Of a DNA stretch of 62,536 nucleotides, positions 21,745 to 55,013 are shown piece by piece (the first letter of the stretch is position 1; every line of letters begins with the position of its first letter). The notes under the pieces were generated by a model. The model saw only the letters and a program-made list of their open reading frames with translations. It did not search any database and was not told where the DNA came from. The DNA lies in the IMG/VR virus record IMGVR_UViG_3300017991_000116, positions 1 to 62,536 of that record; one strand, 5' to 3'. This DNA comes from a virus. Both the position numbers and the translations under genes were made by a program.

Positions 21745-21773
21745 GTTCTACCAGAAGCCGGGGGTTGTGTCAG
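21745..21773 (-). promoter_or_regulatory. Putative promoter of giant-protein operon
   Basis: CTGACA (21768-21773), 17-nt spacer, TAGAAC (21745-21750). The TGA of the ParB-like gene (21770) lies within the -35 box. The leader to the ATG at 21722 is short (about 16 nt) and contains GGAGG. Confidence 0.5.
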
Positions 21774-22582
21774 CCAACCGCCTCGGAGTCACCCTCGAGC
21801 TCTTCCTTCTCGCGGGCTTCGGCTTCCTTCACCCAACGCTCCGTCACCTTGCCAATCACTTCGTTGACGTCGTGCCCCCATTCTCGGGCAAACTTGAGGA
21901 CGCGATCAACCGCCTTCTTGGTCTTCTTGCTCAAGGCGACGTAGACGTGCTCCTTGCCGCCGTAGGAGAAGACCATGAACGAGTACTCCATCGTGTCGCC
22001 GTGCTCGTTGAACATCTTGTTCAGGATCGTCCCTAGATCGTCCAGGGTCTTGGCCTCGCCCACGGCATCACTGATCTTGTCCTGCGTCTGCTTCGGGAGC
22101 CCAGTGGCCTTGATACCCTTCTGGACCTGGTGCACGAGCTTCTTCCAACCGTCCAGGTCGGTGAAGGCGAACATGCGACGCAGCGGCTTCTCGCCGTACT
22201 TGGTCGCCATCTCGCGGTACAGCGCCGCCAACTTGTCAGGGTTGGGCTTGCCGTGCAGGGAGTTGAGACGGACCGTGACGAACTTCTGAAGGTCTTCGTC
22301 TTGCCACCGAGCGTCCGACAGGATGACGCAAGGAAGCGACTCGTAGCCGAGCGTCTTGGCGGCTTCGTAGCGGTGGGCCCCGCCGAGGATGCGGTAGGAC
22401 CCGTCCACCATGGGAACGATGTGAAGGGGCTCTATGAAGCCGTTCTCCTTGATCTCGGAGACGAGCCACGCGAACTCCTCACTCGTCATCTCGTTCGCGT
22501 TCCACGCGTTCTTCTCGATGAGGTCGAGGTCGACGCTCATCACGGTGGGGGTTTCCGGCACGCCCTGTGGAGAGTCGGTCAT
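21770..22582 (-). CDS. ParB/Srx-fold protein
   Basis: 270 residues, ATG at 22582 overlapping the upstream stop (ATGA). Residues about 15-100 carry the ParB/sulfiredoxin N-terminal pattern: LIEKNAWNANEM, IKENGFIEPLHIVP, then GGAHRYEAAKTLGYESLPCVI, where the GxHRxxAA loop binds CTP or ATP in family members. The rest is helical and basic with an acidic end. It sits among ssb, ruvC and a helix-turn-helix gene, so a role in DNA handling or regulation is more likely than partitioning; no ParA is present. Confidence 0.7.
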   Translation of the reverse strand: MTDSPQGVPETPTVMSVDLDLIEKNAWNANEMTSEEFAWLVSEIKENGFIEPLHIVPMVDGSYRILGGAHRYEAAKTLGYESLPCVILSDARWQDEDLQKFVTVRLNSLHGKPNPDKLAALYREMATKYGEKPLRRMFAFTDLDGWKKLVHQVQKGIKATGLPKQTQDKISDAVGEAKTLDDLGTILNKMFNEHGDTMEYSFMVFSYGGKEHVYVALSKKTKKAVDRVLKFAREWGHDVNEVIGKVTERWVKEAEAREKEELEGDSEAVG

Positions 22583-22800
22583 TGCGATGTCAGGGCCTCC
22601 ACCAACGTGTCGCACTTGCCCGAAACGATTTGGAGCTCACCAACGAATTCACGGAGGAAGCTCTCGAGCGCCTCGGGGTCCTGCGCCGGGATCGACACAC
22701 CGGGGATGCCGACCTCCACTCGCTCCTGCCACTTCTTGAGGATGGCGATGCCCGTCTCGAGCTCGTTGTGCATCACTTCGGGGGACACAGGAAGGTTCAT
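22579..22800 (-). CDS. Small helical protein
   Basis: 73 residues, ATG at 22800 (MNLPVSPEVMHNELETG) overlapping the upstream stop as ATGA, and its own stop overlapping the ParB-like start. Helical throughout, acidic, no metal motif. Probably a subunit or adaptor for one of its coupled neighbours. Function unknown. Confidence 0.55.
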   Translation of the reverse strand: MNLPVSPEVMHNELETGIAILKKWQERVEVGIPGVSIPAQDPEALESFLREFVGELQIVSGKCDTLVEALTSQ

Positions 22801-32625: not shown

Positions 32626-33696
32626 TCAGCCAGGATAACAATCAGCCTCGTGGTTGTCAACCGAAAGAATCTCTTCCAGTTCCTCATCGTCGTACTCGTC
32701 AGGGTCGCGCCCCTCATACACGGAAGCGACGTGGACGGGTAGCCTTCCCTTGAGCCTGGCTTCCCATTTCGCGGCGGCCTCGCCACCGGCCGTGTCGCCG
32801 TCCGGAACGATGATGACCTCGCTCAGGAGCTCGACGATCTTGTCGGCCTGGATGGCACTCAGGTGACTGCCCATCACCGCGACCGCGTTCGGGTAGCCTG
32901 CCTGCCTCAAGTAGATGGCGTCGAAGTGCCCTTCAACCAGGTAGCCGAGCTGGCCCTTCTGCACGAGGTGCTCGCCGAACAGGAAGTTGTCTCGCTTGAA
33001 ACCCGAACCGTGCATGAACTTCGGGAGCTGCTCCGGTATCCACTCCTGCGCCACCTTGTCGAAGTAGTCCAGAGCTCGCCCCGACAGTCCGACCAGCTTG
33101 CCGTTCATGTCGCGTACGGGGACCACCACGCGCCTCGCGTGCGGTTGCCATCCGAGTTCCCATAACTGGACCGAAAGGGGCGTCAGACCCCGCCTGGGGC
33201 CGAAGAGGTACGCCTCCGCTGCCGGTGCCATCTCGCGGAACCCGAGCAGGACTTCCTCGGGGATGATGTCGTACTCGAGTTGGTCGATCGGACGGCGGAG
33301 CGGCTCGGGGTTGCTCGAGGCCCAGTACGAGCTCCGGGCGAGTCTCGAGCGCTGCGCCTCCGTGTCTTTGGAAAACTCCTCTTTCGCCTCGAGCTCGGCG
33401 AGACTGGGGCCGTCCTTGCCCACGAGGTCTCCCGCAGCTCGGAACCAGTTGCCTTTGCCCCGGTACCGGGCGAGCCGCCACACGAGCTGGCGCATGTCTC
33501 CCGTGATGCCGCAGGAGTGACAGAAAAACCGGCTCTCGCCATCCGACACGCGGATGCCGAAGGACGGACGACGGTCGCGACCCTTCTGGTGCCTGACCGA
33601 TGCGAAGGGACACGAGATGTTCAACCACTCCCGACTCGGTTTGATCTCGCTTGCCCCCAGGATGTACAGCAGCCTCTCGATGTCCCCTTCCCTCAT
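32626..33696 (-). CDS. DnaG-type primase
   Basis: 356 residues, shorter than bacterial DnaG. An N-terminal zinc site (Cys29, His36, Cys59, Cys62) is followed by a TOPRIM core with LGYLVEGHFDAIYL (about 250) and VIIVPDGDTAGG (about 293). The C-terminal helicase-binding domain of DnaG is absent. It makes RNA primers for the family A polymerase. Start overlaps the previous stop (ATGA). Confidence 0.9.
   Translation of the reverse strand: MREGDIERLLYILGASEIKPSREWLNISCPFASVRHQKGRDRRPSFGIRVSDGESRFFCHSCGITGDMRQLVWRLARYRGKGNWFRAAGDLVGKDGPSLAELEAKEEFSKDTEAQRSRLARSSYWASSNPEPLRRPIDQLEYDIIPEEVLLGFREMAPAAEAYLFGPRRGLTPLSVQLWELGWQPHARRVVVPVRDMNGKLVGLSGRALDYFDKVAQEWIPEQLPKFMHGSGFKRDNFLFGEHLVQKGQLGYLVEGHFDAIYLRQAGYPNAVAVMGSHLSAIQADKIVELLSEVIIVPDGDTAGGEAAAKWEARLKGRLPVHVASVYEGRDPDEYDDEELEEILSVDNHEADCYPG
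32632..32660 (-). promoter_or_regulatory. Promoter of gp32-like gene
   Basis: TTGACA (32655-32660), 17-nt spacer, TATCCT (32632-32637), read on the minus strand, within the last codons of the primase gene. Near-consensus, giving a leader of about 60 nt. Confidence 0.75.
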
Positions 33697-34001
33697 GTGC
33701 CTTTGTCTCCCACTATCGTCTTGCCGGCCGGCTCGGGCTGTTGAACCGACTCGAACAACTTGTCGAACGTCATTGATTTACGGAGACCGCCGCTCTCGCG
33801 GAGGTGGGTCTGGTTCTTCTTGACTCCCTTCGACGTGAGCCGGATGGAGTTTGCGTCTCCCTGGTCGGCGCCACGGTGCAGGTAGCCCCACTCCATCAGG
33901 CGTGCTCGAGCAATCTCGAGGGCCACGTCGAAGCTGTAGCCCTTCTTCATGATCGCAACCGTCATGTGCTTGACGATGACGGGTACGGTGTTGCGGGCCA
34001 T
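33693..34001 (-). CDS. Small protein between helicase and primase
   Basis: 102 residues. N-terminal helix, then SFDVALEIARARLMEWGYL (about 23-41) and a basic stretch. Its stop overlaps the primase ATG and its ATG overlaps the DnaB-type stop (TGATG), so it is embedded in the primosome operon and may be an adaptor. No family recognised. Confidence 0.6.
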   Translation of the reverse strand: MARNTVPVIVKHMTVAIMKKGYSFDVALEIARARLMEWGYLHRGADQGDANSIRLTSKGVKKNQTHLRESGGLRKSMTFDKLFESVQQPEPAGKTIVGDKGT

Positions 34002-35317: not shown

Positions 35318-35938
35318 TCAGCCGTCGCCCAGGATCATCTTCTTCAGATCGTTGTTCTTCTCGCAACGCTGGTCGGGCCCGTTCACCGGGAGCATGACCA
35401 GGTAGTTCTGTGTTGCTTCGAAGAACCCTTTCATCGCCTTGCGAAGCCCCATCACGTCCATGCGGGTGGTCACAAGCGTCGCGTGACGATGCGAACCCCG
35501 GAACGCTACGAGCTCCTCGATGGCGCGTGAACCGAAGAACCTCTCCTTGCCGTCATCTTCGCAGAGCCCGTCGAGCACGAGCACGTCCACGGTACGGCAG
35601 CGGTCGAGGATGGAGAGCTCCTCGGAGAACATCACTCGGTTCCGGATGCATTCGCGCAGTTCCCAGACCGAGATGAAGTAGGTCGTGTAGCCTCTCGAGC
35701 GGGCCTCCTTCAGGACGAGCGATCCGATGCAGGTCTTGCCTACGCCGGTCGGTCCACTCAGGATCATGCCTGCTCCTCGAGGAAGCATGTCGTCGATGCG
35801 AATCAGGTACCGTTCGATGACGTCGCGCACGCTCTCCGGAACCGACTGAACCTTCGTAGTCCACAGTTCGCGAGGGAGGTTCATCCTTTCGAAATCCTCC
35901 CTGTCTAGAGTCCGTCGCAAGCGTCGCACCTGATTCAT
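35318..35938 (-). CDS. DnaC/IstB-like helicase loader
   Basis: 206 residues from the ATG at 35938 (AGGACGAGG upstream). AAA+ ATPase with Walker A SGPTGVGKT (about 60-68), Walker B DVLVLDGL (about 120) and a sensor-like TLVTTRMD. The layout matches DnaC/IstB proteins that place DnaB-type helicase on origin DNA. It lies between the initiator and the helicase, the same order of functions as lambda O-P. Confidence 0.85.
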   Translation of the reverse strand: MNQVRRLRRTLDREDFERMNLPRELWTTKVQSVPESVRDVIERYLIRIDDMLPRGAGMILSGPTGVGKTCIGSLVLKEARSRGYTTYFISVWELRECIRNRVMFSEELSILDRCRTVDVLVLDGLCEDDGKERFFGSRAIEELVAFRGSHRHATLVTTRMDVMGLRKAMKGFFEATQNYLVMLPVNGPDQRCEKNNDLKKMILGDG

Positions 35939-35945
35939 CCTCGTC

Positions 35946-37262
35946 CTACTTGCCTCCGCCGAAGGCTTCCGCGTCCTTCTGGACCTTCTGCCAGCGGGCT
36001 TCCAATTCGGGGGGAGCGATGACGTCGTGGGGGTGATCCGCAAACCACTGCCTGTACTCGCGTTCGACCTTCTCGACGGCCGCCCAACCCTGGGATTCGA
36101 GCACGAGCACGTCGTGCATCTTCAACAGAAGACCCACGCTCGGCACGGTGCCGGTCGTTTTGAAGATTCGTTCGCGAAGGACGTCCCATCGGCTTATCAG
36201 GTAGTGTAAGGCTTGCTCAATGATTGCGCCATCGTATTTCTCGATGAGCTGCTTGCATTGCGCGCGCTCTTTCGGACCCCAGGCGGGAATCTTGATAGCC
36301 GGGAACCTGTCCCGCATGTCCGAAAGCCAGATGGCCTCACACGCCTTGAGTTGCTTCTGCATGGAGGGCTTCACGGACTTGCCGTTGAGGTTCTCCCTCC
36401 GGGCGTCCTTGGCGAGGCTCTTCTCGACGTTGGCGGCGACCTGCCGCCCGGTCCGTTCCTTGGCGGCGGCGACCACCTCCTCGAGGGTCTTCTTGGTGGT
36501 CAGAGGTGAAGTAGGAGGATGTGCCGAACTGTAGGATGCCGGCGGAACTTCTTCTGAACTTGGGGGCGGGGCAGGGTCCGAGCCCGCCCCTCGGCTGGCG
36601 CCTCGGGGGTCACTGCCGCTCGCGGCCAAGCTTTGGTCTTCTCTTTCTTTGTTCTTCTCTTCTTTAAGAGGCGAGACACTGGTGTCCTGGGGGTCGAGAC
36701 ACTGGTGTCCTGGGGGTCGAGACACTGGTGTCCTGGGGTCGGCCCCCGAACCGTCCTCCGAGAACTGCTTGACGAGCTCTACTCTGTCTGTAATGTCGAG
36801 TACATGTATGGAAAACGCCTCATTTTCTGCGAACTGGTACGCCTGCCGGGCTTTTTTCTCCATGAAAACGCGTAGTTCCCTCAACCACGCGTCAGCGTAG
36901 AAAGCCTCGTGCCGCCTCCCTTTGGAGTCCTCGGTGAGCTGTCCGAGAACGTAGACAAATTCGCCCCCCAACTCAGGTTCGTATACATCCACCCACCCCA
37001 GACTGCGGAGCTCGCTCATCTGTCGGGAGATGGTGCGCTCACTCACGTTGAGGTACATCGCCAGCTTGCCTCGGTTCAGGCGTGCCGCCAACAGCCCCTT
37101 CTTCAGGGCCTGCCTTGAGTGCTTGCCTCCATGCTCCCGCGACCTCCAGATGAACCTGCGGAGCAATTCGTAGAGGTTGAGCATGACCGGGTTGAGCGCG
37201 CCGACGACTCCATAGTCGTACAGTTCGAAGTCACGCTTGATGAAGTACTCGCCGTGATGCAT
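35946..37262 (-). CDS. Replication initiator, lambda O-like layout
   Basis: 438 residues from the ATG at 37262 (MHHGEYFIKRDFELYDYG). Residues about 50-100 form a winged helix (AMYLNVSERTISRQMSELRSLGWV). Residues about 170-270 are a Pro/Ser/Asp-rich linker encoded across three 23-bp DNA repeats. The C-terminal 150 residues are helical and may bind the loader or helicase. A DNA-binding head, linker containing iterons, and a downstream DnaC-like gene recall lambda O with its internal origin. Sequence homology to O itself is not claimed. Confidence 0.7.
   Translation of the reverse strand: MHHGEYFIKRDFELYDYGVVGALNPVMLNLYELLRRFIWRSREHGGKHSRQALKKGLLAARLNRGKLAMYLNVSERTISRQMSELRSLGWVDVYEPELGGEFVYVLGQLTEDSKGRRHEAFYADAWLRELRVFMEKKARQAYQFAENEAFSIHVLDITDRVELVKQFSEDGSGADPRTPVSRPPGHQCLDPQDTSVSPLKEEKNKEREDQSLAASGSDPRGASRGAGSDPAPPPSSEEVPPASYSSAHPPTSPLTTKKTLEEVVAAAKERTGRQVAANVEKSLAKDARRENLNGKSVKPSMQKQLKACEAIWLSDMRDRFPAIKIPAWGPKERAQCKQLIEKYDGAIIEQALHYLISRWDVLRERIFKTTGTVPSVGLLLKMHDVLVLESQGWAAVEKVEREYRQWFADHPHDVIAPPELEARWQKVQKDAEAFGGGK
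36631..36668. other. Pyrimidine/purine-asymmetric low-GC tract next to iterons
   Basis: Plus strand is almost all T and C with few G (for example TTCTCTTTCTTTGTTCTTC), much lower in GC than its surroundings, directly abutting the iterons. It is a candidate duplex-unwinding element of the proposed origin. Confidence 0.5.
36673..36740. repeat. Three tandem 23-bp iterons, candidate replication origin
   Basis: Copies at 36673-36695, 36696-36718 and 36719-36740 (the last lacks one G). Each contains the inverted repeat GACAC-TG-GTGTC followed by a CCTGGGGGTC spacer. Because 23 is not a multiple of 3, the repeats encode different residues in each copy, so selection acts on the DNA rather than the protein. 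Confidence 0.8.
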
Positions 37263-37811: not shown

Positions 37812-38306
37812 TCAGAACAGACCTTCGGTCTCGGACCCCTGGGTTTCCTCGGGGTCGCTCTTCTTCTTGGCCCGAACCGCCGCGCACACCCTCGTAAGCA
37901 AGGCGTCGTTGAGCAGTACGTAGTAGACCGGCGCGTCCACCCCGATGCCGTCCTGGTGCTCGTACTCGGTCTTCTGTGCTCGAGCGCAGTATCCGCAGAA
38001 CGGGCCGGCCAGCATCTCGGGAGCCTCCCCCACCTTCTCTCCGTCGAGCGCGAGCCAAGCGAACTTGCTCGGGTTCTCGGTCCCGCACGCCGGGCACTGC
38101 GTACCCTTGCGGGTGGCCCTCTTGCGTTCGGCATCCCAGCCCGCGTGCGACGCGATGCTCTCGTAGATGCGCCACAGCAAGGCGTCGGACGGGTGCCAGG
38201 GCTCGTCCTTGACCTCGCTCACCATCGAGCCCAACCGCACGAACGTCTCCTGTCCGCAGTCGGGGCACGTACCCTTGGGGCCCGTGTAGATGCCGGGTCC
38301 GCTCAT
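37812..38306 (-). CDS. Zinc-finger protein with several CxxC pairs
   Basis: 164 residues. CPDC (14-17), CPAC (about 71-74) and CGYC (about 104-107) suggest two zinc sites with an Arg-rich helix between. Begins MSGPGIYTGPKG. Coupled to the VWA gene by an ATGA overlap, so it may belong to the MoxR-VWA system rather than to replication. Family not recognised. Confidence 0.6.
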   Translation of the reverse strand: MSGPGIYTGPKGTCPDCGQETFVRLGSMVSEVKDEPWHPSDALLWRIYESIASHAGWDAERKRATRKGTQCPACGTENPSKFAWLALDGEKVGEAPEMLAGPFCGYCARAQKTEYEHQDGIGVDAPVYYVLLNDALLTRVCAAVRAKKKSDPEETQGSETEGLF

Positions 38307-40264
38307 CGGTTCCTCAGAAAGTCGATGAAGCTCGAGGCGACCACGCTCACCAGGTCTTGGCCGATGCGCGCGGGGTCCATCTGCTTCCAGTTGCGCTTGG
38401 GACCGAACATGAACGAGAGCTGCTTGGGGCTCATGTCGTAATGGATCGCCCCCGGCTTGTGCCAGTCCGGAGCTCCGACCATGATCCCCGTGACGTTGAC
38501 TCCCTGCGACCGGCCGCGCTGCACCTCGGTCTTGACGAAGAGCATGAGCTGCTGCGTCGAGACAGATCGTCCGCTGCGTTGGATGTGGGTCGGGAAGCCG
38601 TCGCTCAGGACGAAGAGCTGCTTGTTCTCCGTGCCTTGGAGAAGCTGTTTGATGCCGAGTCGGACACCCACGTGGATCGGGGTCAGTCCTCCGGAGCCGC
38701 CGTCGCTCCGGTCGAGGTAGACCTCCCGCTGGGCGTCGAACCTACTCAGGATCACTTCCCCTGCTTCCTTCGACGTGAACCCCCAGATGTCCAGGTGGAC
38801 GAACGGGAAGTTCAGGGCCCGGCAGATGATCCTAGCCGCACGCTCGCACTGCACGGTCTTGTTGCCGTTCATCGAACCCGAACGGTCGAGCAGGATGAGG
38901 GCCCGAAAGCCTTGGCCCCGGTCCTCGTTGCGGAAGCAGGGGGTAGGGATGCCTGATATGCGTCCCTCGAGATAGGCAGGGATGTCGATCTCGGTTCCCG
39001 TGTCGCGTAGTCCGTACTTGGTCCTGCCCATCACCCTGAAGAACATCGCGCGCAGACGGTTGATGGTCACCAAGTCCTCGTGGTCGAGCTCGGCCCTTCC
39101 CCGGTGGTCGTCCGAGGAGTCGATGAACCGGATGCGGGCCATGGCATCCTTCTGAAGCCACTGGTCGCCGGTCATCTGCTGCTTCATTGCCTGAAGCGCC
39201 TGCTTGACGATCTCGTCCATGCCGGCGCCGCTGCTCCGGAGCATGGACTCCATCCGGTCGTCGTTGCCCACGTCGGCCTGAAGCGCCTGGTTCGACAGAG
39301 CGCTGCTCTGACTGCCCCGGTACTTGCTCTCGCTCGCCATGTTGTCGGGCGTCACGGGCGGGTCACCCATCTGGTCAACCAGGTCTTTGAGCGCTTGCGC
39401 CCTCTGCTTGCCCGCCTCCGGGCCTGCCTTGTTCTGGGGCTGGGAGGCCCCTTCCTGCGGCTTGTTGCCGCCTGGGTTGTCGCAGTCGCAGTCGGGGTCC
39501 GGAGCGCCTATAGGGGACGTAGCGTCGGCGGAAGCCTCGCTCCTGTGCTCTTCGATGATGCGGTCCACGAGTCGCATGACGACCCACTTGCTCACCACGA
39601 GCGAAGCGACGGGCCCTCGCTCCCGCACCCGGTCCAAGGCTTCGGTCAGGGCGTCACGGTACTTGTCCATCGGCCCTTCCGGAACCTCGTCACCGAAGAC
39701 TTGCAGAGCCAGGGCGAAGGTCAGGATGCCGTCGTGAGCGGAGCTCCCTACCCGGAGCGACTTGTACGTGTCGCGTCTGATCCCGTTGATCAGTTCGGTG
39801 CTTCCAGGGTAGAGCCTCTCCCACAGCGAAGAGACGCGGTGCCACTCGAGGGTCCTGGCTAGGGAACCTATGCCGGTGCTCATCGCGTCCGCGCTGATCG
39901 GTGTGCCGAGCTTCTTGGCAACCGAGGCGACTTTCGCCGTGTACTCCTTCGTGAACTGCTTCTGCGCTCGGACGTCCGTGCGGAACAGGACGTGCGATAG
40001 CTGTGTTTCCAGGTGCAGGTAGAAATTCGGGTTGGCGAAGCACAACCGGATCTCGTTGCCGTCCGTGGTCTGTTGGCCGTCCGCGCACTCCTTGAGCCAG
40101 AGCCTTCGCTTCGTGATGCTCCCGAACAGGTCCGTGGTCTTGTAGGCCACCGACTTCATGTTGTGGTAGCGCCCCACCTGATCGAGCTTCGTCAGGTCGA
40201 TGTTGTCGGGGTCGATGTCCACGTCGGGTTCGGTCGGTACTTGGTTGCGGCCAATCGTTCTCAT
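38303..40264 (-). CDS. VWA-domain protein (CobT-like)
   Basis: 653 residues. The C-terminal von Willebrand A domain has a MIDAS site, LLDRSGSMNG (about 455-464), with the further Thr/Asp positions around LTPIHVG and VLSDGFPTH. Residues 210-340 are a low-complexity Gln/Gly/Asp linker. Together with the MoxR-type ATPase just upstream it resembles CobS/CobT or MoxR-VWA pairs, in which the ATPase remodels a target presented by the VWA partner. The phage substrate is unknown. Confidence 0.8.
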   Translation of the reverse strand: MRTIGRNQVPTEPDVDIDPDNIDLTKLDQVGRYHNMKSVAYKTTDLFGSITKRRLWLKECADGQQTTDGNEIRLCFANPNFYLHLETQLSHVLFRTDVRAQKQFTKEYTAKVASVAKKLGTPISADAMSTGIGSLARTLEWHRVSSLWERLYPGSTELINGIRRDTYKSLRVGSSAHDGILTFALALQVFGDEVPEGPMDKYRDALTEALDRVRERGPVASLVVSKWVVMRLVDRIIEEHRSEASADATSPIGAPDPDCDCDNPGGNKPQEGASQPQNKAGPEAGKQRAQALKDLVDQMGDPPVTPDNMASESKYRGSQSSALSNQALQADVGNDDRMESMLRSSGAGMDEIVKQALQAMKQQMTGDQWLQKDAMARIRFIDSSDDHRGRAELDHEDLVTINRLRAMFFRVMGRTKYGLRDTGTEIDIPAYLEGRISGIPTPCFRNEDRGQGFRALILLDRSGSMNGNKTVQCERAARIICRALNFPFVHLDIWGFTSKEAGEVILSRFDAQREVYLDRSDGGSGGLTPIHVGVRLGIKQLLQGTENKQLFVLSDGFPTHIQRSGRSVSTQQLMLFVKTEVQRGRSQGVNVTGIMVGAPDWHKPGAIHYDMSPKQLSFMFGPKRNWKQMDPARIGQDLVSVVASSFIDFLRNR

Positions 40265-41130
40265 TTCTTCGACTTCTTCTGAGGCTTGGCAGCGAGCTGC
40301 ACACCGAAGATGCTCTGGATCCGCTGGACGATGGTGTCGCGGTCCGAGTCGTCGAACTTGCCGATGACGATGCGCAACGCCGTCTGGGTGTCGAGCGCGG
40401 CGATGTCTTCCAGAAGCTGCACCACGTCTCTCGTACTCAGGGCGTACTCGAGCGTCTTCTGGCGCGTCTCGTGCGCCAACAGAAGCACCTTGTCGATGAT
40501 ACCCGAGTCCAGCTTCGAAGCGTTGCCGTTGAGCACGGCTTGGACGACTTCCTTCTCCTTCGAAGGCTTAGGGTAGTCCAGGGCGAGCAGGCGGAACCTG
40601 CTCTTGAGGTCTTCGTTCAACTGGTAAACCCCTCCGTAGACGGAGGTGTTCATGCTGCCCACGACCCACAACCTCGCCCCCGGCTTGAGCTTGAAGACGC
40701 GTTGGCACTCGGGGACCTCGACCTTGCGTCGGTAGTCGGCCACCGAGTTGAGCCCCTTCTGCATCTGCGGGGTCAACGCGTTGACCTCTTCGAAAGCCAG
40801 GATGCACATGCCATATTCGTTCGCGATTTCGAACGCGGTCGGGATCGGCCCCAGGATGAACGGGGTCTGGTCACCGCGCAGGACGTACATGCCGATGAGG
40901 TGGCTTCTCCTCACGTCCTCGGAGCAGTCGAACGTCACGATCGGGCATTTGATCTTGGCTGCCCACGACTGGAAGGAGAGCGTCTTGCCGATACCCTTGG
41001 GCCCCACGCAGATGAGCGGGGCCTCGAACTGCAAGCCCTCGTAGATGTCGTGCAGTCCGTACATGTCGACGAACTTGACGGGGTCGGGCTGGAACTCTTT
41101 GATGGGGATGTGCTCGGTCTTCGTTGTCAT
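40261..41130 (-). CDS. MoxR/CobS-like AAA+ ATPase
   Basis: 289 residues. Walker A GPKGIGKT (about 43-50), Walker B CILAFEEVN (about 109-117), a GSMNTS sensor 1 (about 157) and the arginine-containing LNEDLKSRFRLLALDYP. Typical of MoxR/CobS ATPases. Forms an operon with the VWA gene. The ATG at 41130 has no ribosome site and lies exactly 6 nt after a TATTGT -10 box, so the message is probably leaderless. Confidence 0.85.
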   Translation of the reverse strand: MTTKTEHIPIKEFQPDPVKFVDMYGLHDIYEGLQFEAPLICVGPKGIGKTLSFQSWAAKIKCPIVTFDCSEDVRRSHLIGMYVLRGDQTPFILGPIPTAFEIANEYGMCILAFEEVNALTPQMQKGLNSVADYRRKVEVPECQRVFKLKPGARLWVVGSMNTSVYGGVYQLNEDLKSRFRLLALDYPKPSKEKEVVQAVLNGNASKLDSGIIDKVLLLAHETRQKTLEYALSTRDVVQLLEDIAALDTQTALRIVIGKFDDSDRDTIVQRIQSIFGVQLAAKPQKKSKK

Positions 41131-48909: not shown

Positions 48910-48961
48910 GGCAGAACTGATCTTTTATTGATCTTTTCTTGAACGCCTAGGAAACAAGGCG

Positions 48962-54429: not shown

Positions 54430-55013
54430 GCAGAGGATGATCTTTTTTGATCTTTTTCTGAAACCTCTTTGAATAAAGGGTATCCGCGCTCCATGTCGTC
54501 AAGGTGGGAGCCGGCATACCCCAACTCAAGGAGCCGCTCGAGCACCTCTTGGTTGGAGAACTCGCGCCCGAAGTAGCAGCGGTCCGGACGGTACTCGCCG
54601 AGCACCCGGTCCCGCAGGCGGTTGTTGTGAACGCAGCTCTTTCGCTTGAGCTTCTCCTGTCTCATCGTCAGGTCGATGACGGCACCTTGGAATTGGATCC
54701 ACCCGTGCAGGATGGGGAGCCCCTGCGAGGCTGCGCAGGTGACGTAGCCCTCGACGTACCGAAGCGCGCTGCCCGTGTAGAACCTCTTGGCATGCAGGAC
54801 CAGGATCTGCGCGTTGAAGTAGCACTGCTGCCGCTGGAACCGGTGTCCGTACGAGTCGATGACCTCGAAGAGCCAGGCGAGCTCGTCGTCGTACATCGGG
54901 CGGGAGGGCCAGTCTCTACCGTGGTCGAGGAGGTACTGGCCGATGTTGGCGTACTTGTATCCGGGCGGCGTGGGAGCTGCGAGCGAGGCGAGCACCTCGA
55001 GGGATTCGATCAT
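54426..55013 (-). CDS. Hypothetical protein
   Basis: 195 residues, ATG at 55013, 6 nt after the -10-like CATCTT. Alpha/beta with several aromatic clusters (ELAWLFEVIDSYGHRFQRQQCYFNAQIL, then RYVEGYVTCAASQGLPILHGWI, GAVIDLTMRQ), a pattern reminiscent of small papain-like or transglutaminase-fold domains with a Cys...His...Asp order, but the catalytic assignment is uncertain. Lys/Ser-rich C-terminus. Confidence 0.55.
   Translation of the reverse strand: MIESLEVLASLAAPTPPGYKYANIGQYLLDHGRDWPSRPMYDDELAWLFEVIDSYGHRFQRQQCYFNAQILVLHAKRFYTGSALRYVEGYVTCAASQGLPILHGWIQFQGAVIDLTMRQEKLKRKSCVHNNRLRDRVLGEYRPDRCYFGREFSNQEVLERLLELGYAGSHLDDMERGYPLFKEVSEKDQKRSSSA

Follow-up and report, generated by a model that had tools for sequence, protein, structure and literature searches.

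Does the initiator gene of this phage hold, within its own coding sequence, the origin at which replication starts? The question is raised by a viral DNA fragment of 62,536 bases, analysed at its full length and called the window below, in which three tandem repeats lie within a putative initiator gene. The initial annotation had read them as a lambda-like replication origin placed inside that gene. Judged by their place, period and dyads, the AT-rich tract beside them, their break of the reading frame and the covariation of recognition helix and dyad, the repeats are very probably iterons of an origin lying within its own initiator gene. In the best reading by analogy, this origin would work like lambda ori, SPP1 oriL and pSK41 ori, the origin-in-initiator plan having precedents in other phages and in certain plasmids.

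Organisation of the locus

The genes of the locus are the following:

35946 to 37262, minus strand: initiator gene, 438 aa, with its ATG at 37262
35318 to 35938, minus strand: DnaC-like AAA+ helicase loader, 206 aa
34001 to 35290, minus strand: DnaB-like replicative helicase
33693 to 34001, minus strand: small ORF between helicase and primase
32626 to 33696, minus strand: DnaG-like primase (Toprim)

The start of the initiator was chosen from alignments, the program ORF beginning at TTG 37403. The loader is matched by IstB_IS21 over the cut-off and by phrog_50 (DnaC-like), the helicase by DnaB_C (E 6e-15) and the primase by Toprim_2 and phrog_47. The loader and helicase genes said to follow the initiator are therefore confirmed by Pfam and phrog, and a primase gene follows as well. 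An ORF similar in size to the small one is found at the same place in many relatives. Upstream of the replication genes, positions 38303-41130 encode a weakly matching VWA/CobT-like protein and an AAA_5 ATPase (phrog_249), and a ParB-like nuclease-domain protein (phrog_26387, E 4e-59) is encoded at 21770-22615.

The window also carries a T4-type head module, with the Gp23 capsid protein, a Gp20-type portal (Portal_T4) and a Peptidase_S77 protease, all over their cut-offs. Gp23 is present in 11 of the 19 viral contigs of the family, several of which are short fragments, and in 0 of the 2 cultured phages examined. The pairing of such a head with a lambda-type origin had been called unexpected; the head is there as claimed, but the pairing is that of a lineage and not a one-off.

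The repeat array and the AT-rich tract

The repeats and the tract that adjoins them have no strand of their own and are placed as follows:

36718 to 36740, no strand: iteron 3, dyad at 36721-36732, one G fewer towards the unit end
36695 to 36717, no strand: iteron 2, dyad at 36698-36709
36672 to 36694, no strand: iteron 1, dyad GACAC-TG-GTGTC at 36675-36686
36631 to 36671, no strand: AT-rich tract, purine-rich on the coding strand, proposed unwinding element

Iterons 1 and 2 are identical and iteron 3 stands at 91%, with spacings of 23 and 23 bp. Tandem Repeats Finder gave the array a score of 134, the top of the window, the runner-up reaching 83. The exact dyad GACACTGGTGTC occurs 3 times in the 62,536 bases, always inside the array; at up to 2 mismatches it has 12 matches in the window, which is not above chance (mean 7.25, largest 15). 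With CGAGACACTGGTGTC at up to 2 mismatches, no site was found elsewhere in the 62,536-base record, itself a fragment, and the backwards control gave 0. The array makes up codons 175-197 of the initiator, each copy being read in a different frame, and as only 3 x 23 = 69 bp restores the frame, the gain or loss of a single copy would break the gene. The coordinates, the repeat score and the predicted disorder of the protein at this place uphold the initial description of three tandem 23-bp repeats with GACAC-TG-GTGTC in the linker-coding part.

The low-GC polypyrimidine tract said to adjoin the repeats is likewise found when the window 40-mers are ranked by duplex stability, positions 36631-36671 being the fourth least stable distinct 40-bp site, with 21 of 62,497 40-mers as weak or weaker. 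Two short tandem repeats resembling each other in sequence, TGATCTTTTAT and TGATCTTTTT, lie at 48918-48942 and 54438-54457, both AT-rich sites, and the least stable 40-mer of the window, at 54439, falls at one of them. Regarding GC skew, which had been proposed as a check, an origin at 36.7 kb gets no support from it: the third-position skew is unchanged there (-0.069 left, -0.090 right), and the cumulative skew has a broad minimum at about 40-53 kb in this 62.5-kb fragment of an incomplete genome.

The initiator protein

The domains of the initiator, as modelled, are encoded as follows:

36843 to 37226, minus strand: N-terminal winged-helix domain, residues 13-140 (structure model), containing the predicted recognition helix, residues 75-88, with Arg80
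36489 to 36746, minus strand: disordered linker, residues 173-258, encoded by the iterons, the AT-rich tract and flank
35964 to 36485, minus strand: C-terminal helical domain, residues 260-433, common to the family and proposed to bind the loader

The disorder of the linker is predicted from pLDDT values below 50 at residues 173-232 and 234-258. Pfam HTH matches to the initiator are weak and below curated cut-offs in the window, but over the cut-off in some relatives, in agreement with its earlier description as a winged-helix initiator. The N-domain model matches 4pql (Z 8.9, rmsd 5.7, 119 aligned), 4pt7 (Z 8.8, rmsd 5.6, 120 aligned) and 5kbj (Z 8.2, rmsd 4.0, 114 aligned), all entries titled initiator or Rep and which we take to be RepA_N proteins. 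Its Z of 8.1-8.9 to RepA_N/DnaD-like folds is tied with that to unrelated CRP-type winged helices (Z about 9), so that the fold match is not specific. The RepA_N domain had no Pfam match in the initiator up to E 0.1, and among the viral matches in BFVD are some that bear the name replication initiator, though their TM-scores are poor.

For the C-domain model (pLDDT 90), a Foldseek search gave no match. A fold search gave a best Z of 6.0, followed by 5.6 for the lambda loader P in its complex with DnaB (rmsd 4.2, 82 aligned); a likeness to P was rejected, as this Z is within the chance range for helical bundles. The plan of the locus alone suggests that the C-domain may contact the DnaC-like loader.

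Comparison with known origins

As described in PMC5043065, lambda ori lies in gene O and consists of inverted-repeat iterons bound by O dimers, followed by 40 bp of AT-rich DNA. Reports cited in PMC5043065 and PMC7466680 state that lambda can grow with three iterons, and that two iterons with the AT tract are enough for unwinding. In the annotated lambda record, successive iterons begin at distances of 20, 24 and 23 bp. The window resembles this arrangement in having dyad iterons mid-initiator gene and then an AT-rich, strand-asymmetric tract. Meanwhile, lambda uses the host DnaB, whereas the phage of the window encodes its own helicase and primase. Phage_rep_O had no match in the initiator up to E 0.1, the C-domain was related to the lambda O C-terminus with 0.05% probability and the loader profile to lambda P with 0.08%. 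Descent from lambda was rejected for this lack of similarity to O or P, the loader being a DnaC-like AAA+ protein. The term lambda-like thus holds for the plan, iterons and an AT-rich tract within an initiator gene, but not for the ancestry.

SPP1 oriL, according to PMC6316719, has direct repeats and an AT-rich element inside gene 38, and initiation employs the gp38 initiator, the gp39 loader and the gp40 DnaB-type helicase. The internal origin and the order of initiator, loader and DnaB helicase are shared with the window, gp38 being compared by its description in that text. SPP1 also possesses another origin bearing these repeats, and none was seen in the 62.5-kb window fragment. In pSK41, according to PMC5703833, a winged-helix NTD binds Rep boxes central in rep, the ori-encoded middle forms a linker and the CTD makes the replisome contact with DnaG. 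The likeness to this system lies in the winged-helix NTD, the mid-gene origin encoding a linker and the separate CTD, although the initiator of the window, unlike the RepA_N initiator of pSK41, is without a RepA_N Pfam match.

The array across related viral loci

With the initiator or loader of the window as sole query, relatives were not found. The DnaB-like helicase as query retrieved 18 and then 30 viral loci, and gave no relatives among genome contigs. These 30 loci were pruned to 23, which with the window make 24 initiator genes; left out were L018, L020 and L025, which end before the initiator, L016, without an intact one, L009, equal to L008, L014, equal to L013 in the compared stretch, and L029, which has the ORF coordinates of L028 without being identical. 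The order initiator, loader, DnaB and primase, with the small ORF before the primase in many relatives, is kept in almost every locus long enough to show it. The C-domain is common to the family initiators, and the N-domains are of at least two types, one HTH_36-like (L004, L012, L015, L021 and others) and a longer form (the window, L005, L013 and others).

A linker array was accepted at the same place in 22 of the 24 initiator genes, with a period of 21-24 bp, some array ends and dyads being set by eye. Dyads are present in most arrays, an AT-rich, purine-rich tract adjoining the array is likewise conserved, and the repeat sequences differ almost completely from one array to another. A best short-lag self-match of at least 15 is reached by 18/24 initiators vs 5/211 other ORFs of the same loci and the window, and one of at least 20 by 11/24 vs 1/211. 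Of the two genes without an accepted array, L017 has none and L031 only inverted repeats with a similar tract.

Some relatives differ around the helicase. In-frame insertions at Walker A that are inteins with a LAGLIDADG endonuclease (Pfam) interrupt the DnaB-like helicases of L012 (4138-6714), L013 (4216-6825) and L017 (4264-6813); in that of L016 (4765-6786), the insertion in the Walker A region is an intein without endonuclease (Pfam), L019 (4216-6774) has an in-frame insertion at the same region and the helicase of the window has none. In L021 (5400-5999) and L030 (5403-5999), an extra gene resembling the initiator C-domain stands directly before the helicase, besides the initiator.

Among cultured phages, gp70 of Aeromonas phage HJ05 carries three GGGACAC-TG-GTGTCC units with a 23-bp period, two of them complete and the third truncated in the match. 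It is like the initiator of the window in dyad, period, the AT-rich tract that follows, a homologous C-domain (94%, E 1e-7) and gene neighbourhood. Unlike the window, its N-domain has a weak Phage_rep_O match (24 bits, below the 28.7 cut-off), and the genome is without a Gp23 head. In Pseudomonas phage SM1, the second gene before that for DnaB contains a 22-bp repeat, and no convincing array was found in the cultured Rhizobium phage RHph_Y1_11 and Rhodobacter phage RcMenchie (L036, L037).

The position of the sites bears on another use for them, as operators through which the initiator would repress or time its own operon, the origin lying elsewhere. A DNA-binding protein with dyad sites in its own gene suits this use, and one site can do both. 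However, the sites are more than 500 bp inside the gene and not on the promoter side, and the AT-rich tract of the relatives lies on a constant side of them, so an operator array is improbable.

Blind scans for the dyad

When all viral contigs were scanned for the exact dyad pair at 23 bp, 4 of 4 matches fell in the linker of an HTH gene. All four are outside the family of the window and have an A-rich tract after the pair; the contigs are near-identical and so represent one or two lineages. GGACA-N4-TGTCC pairs numbered at least 120 in viral contigs, and 101 of the 119 new stretches listed are in an ORF of at least 150 aa. Among the viral matches listed, 65 of 89 distinct ORF proteins match HTH_36, some of the others being evidently wrong-frame ORFs. 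In genome contigs the pair was also found at least 120 times; among the matches listed, 68 of 120 are in an ORF of at least 150 aa, and many of the remaining ones are repeats scattered through single genomes.

Roseobacter-type genomes (L170, L171, L213, L238, L241, L260, L268, L279) carry the pair in one conserved HTH gene, a rep-like gene with the helix stretch AKSVKRAL that is probably a plasmid or prophage initiator. The pair is dispersed many times in L163, L164, L166, L173, L175 and other contigs of one Planctomycetaceae bin, as well as in L169, L174, L226 and L230 of a Thermoanaerobaculia bin, with many copies per genome; these dispersed repeats are unrelated to initiator genes.

The distribution of the arrays can also be set against a centromere-like or packaging site. 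Tandem dyads are similar in form to partition sites, and the window has the ParB-like match at 21770-22615; yet in all compared lineages, including those found by the array alone, the arrays track the initiator and not a par gene, and the ParB-like gene figures in none of the evidence, which leaves such a site extremely improbable.

Selection on the DNA

The lags of the arrays are multiples of 3 in 5 of 22, compared with 12 of 12 control repeats in other genes (p 2e-5, many loci being related, so that p-values overstate independence). Accordingly, 17 of 22 arrays have a frame-breaking period, compared with 0 of 12 controls. As most lags are not multiples of 3, the period is kept at the DNA level and not at the protein level, in line with the original argument that a frame-breaking 23-bp period means repeats maintained as DNA.

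With array ends set by script, and in a set that omits L008, L017 and L031 and adds HJ05, SM1 and L038, the AT content of the 60 bp after the array exceeds that of the gene in 23 of 24 cases. In the same set, synonymous GC3 of the 25 codons after the array is lower than elsewhere in the gene in 24 of 24 (means 0.48 vs 0.73); upstream of the array it is intermediate (mean 0.62, lower than the rest in 19 of 24). With ends set by eye, AT after the array is higher in 23 of 23. The same script applied to lambda O as a control gave a lag score of 13.5 and an AT content of 0.68 in the 60 bp after the iterons vs 0.52 for the gene. Acidic K/E/N-rich residues recur in the tract, which may therefore be partly selected as peptide; the synonymous shift is evidence for the DNA component only.

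These patterns weigh on the idea that the array is a minisatellite made by slippage, without function as DNA and tolerated in a disordered linker. The linker is indeed predicted to be disordered, and two copies are identical, indicating that the array is young or homogenised. On the other hand, unrelated repeat sequences come with the same place, period, dyads and AT tract, most periods disrupt the frame, the synonymous AT shift is seen in 24 of 24 genes and helix and dyad covary, so a minisatellite is very improbable.

Recognition helix and dyad covariation

Covariation was followed in at least 80 loci of another initiator family, collected through its protein sequence and independently of iterons. 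In the 80 listed loci, C stands at dyad position -2 in 8 of 12 distinct combinations with Arg at helix position 7, compared with 3 of 44 non-Arg combinations (p 5e-5), and, counted by distinct helix, in 6 of 10 Arg vs 1 of 30 non-Arg (p 3e-4). The 4 of 12 Arg combinations without C at -2 are suspected to be wrong dyad calls in AT-rich linkers. Among the matches listed, Arg occupies position 7 in 66 of 76 GGACA-selected proteins vs 12 of 61 protein-selected homologs, after exclusion of 11 of 87 and 3 of 64 listed proteins, respectively, in which the helix pattern is missing; the two samples differ in make-up and their sequences are related, so that p-values are not exact. Across 22 initiators, helix similarity and iteron similarity were weakly correlated in a Mantel test (r 0.25, p 0.004), with r falling to 0.18 (p 0.049) once three close relatives had been removed.

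The window, with Arg80 and the dyad GGACA-CCAG-TGTC, fits the association between Arg and C. In its GC-rich family, inspected by eye, the readable Arg members have C at -2, but so do the non-Arg L013, L021 and L030, and the helix rule is not clean there. The covariation indicates, indirectly, that such winged helices read the iterons of their own gene. We lean towards a rule by which Arg at position 7 (Arg80; stretch [RK]-T-[IV]-x-R) would read C:G at -2, giving GGACA-N4-TGTCC as one iteron common to initiators that otherwise differ, among them those of the window, of HJ05, of L038 and of many phages retrieved in the blind scan. Under this rule, protein and DNA would change together within one gene. 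Searches of the open-access literature found no mention of this lineage or of such a helix rule, a weak sign that the rule may be new.

Proposed mechanism and meaning

Taking the repeats as iterons of an origin inside the initiator gene, the N-terminal winged helix would bind each dyad, probably as one dimer per iteron. The three occupied iterons would then form a nucleoprotein complex, straining and opening the AT-rich, purine-rich tract beside them. The C-domain, held on by the origin-encoded linker, would recruit the DnaC-like loader, which would set the phage's own DnaB-like helicase on the strand thus opened, and the primase of the phage would act next.

The array is thus the likely replication start for a lineage of uncultured T4-headed phages with contigs of up to 185 kb. 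Across this lineage, the place of the origin, its spacing and its unwinding tract appear to persist, while hardly anything of the iteron sequences is kept. Should the helix-iteron rule be true, origins and cross-recognition among phages, plasmids and phage parasites would become predictable from sequence.
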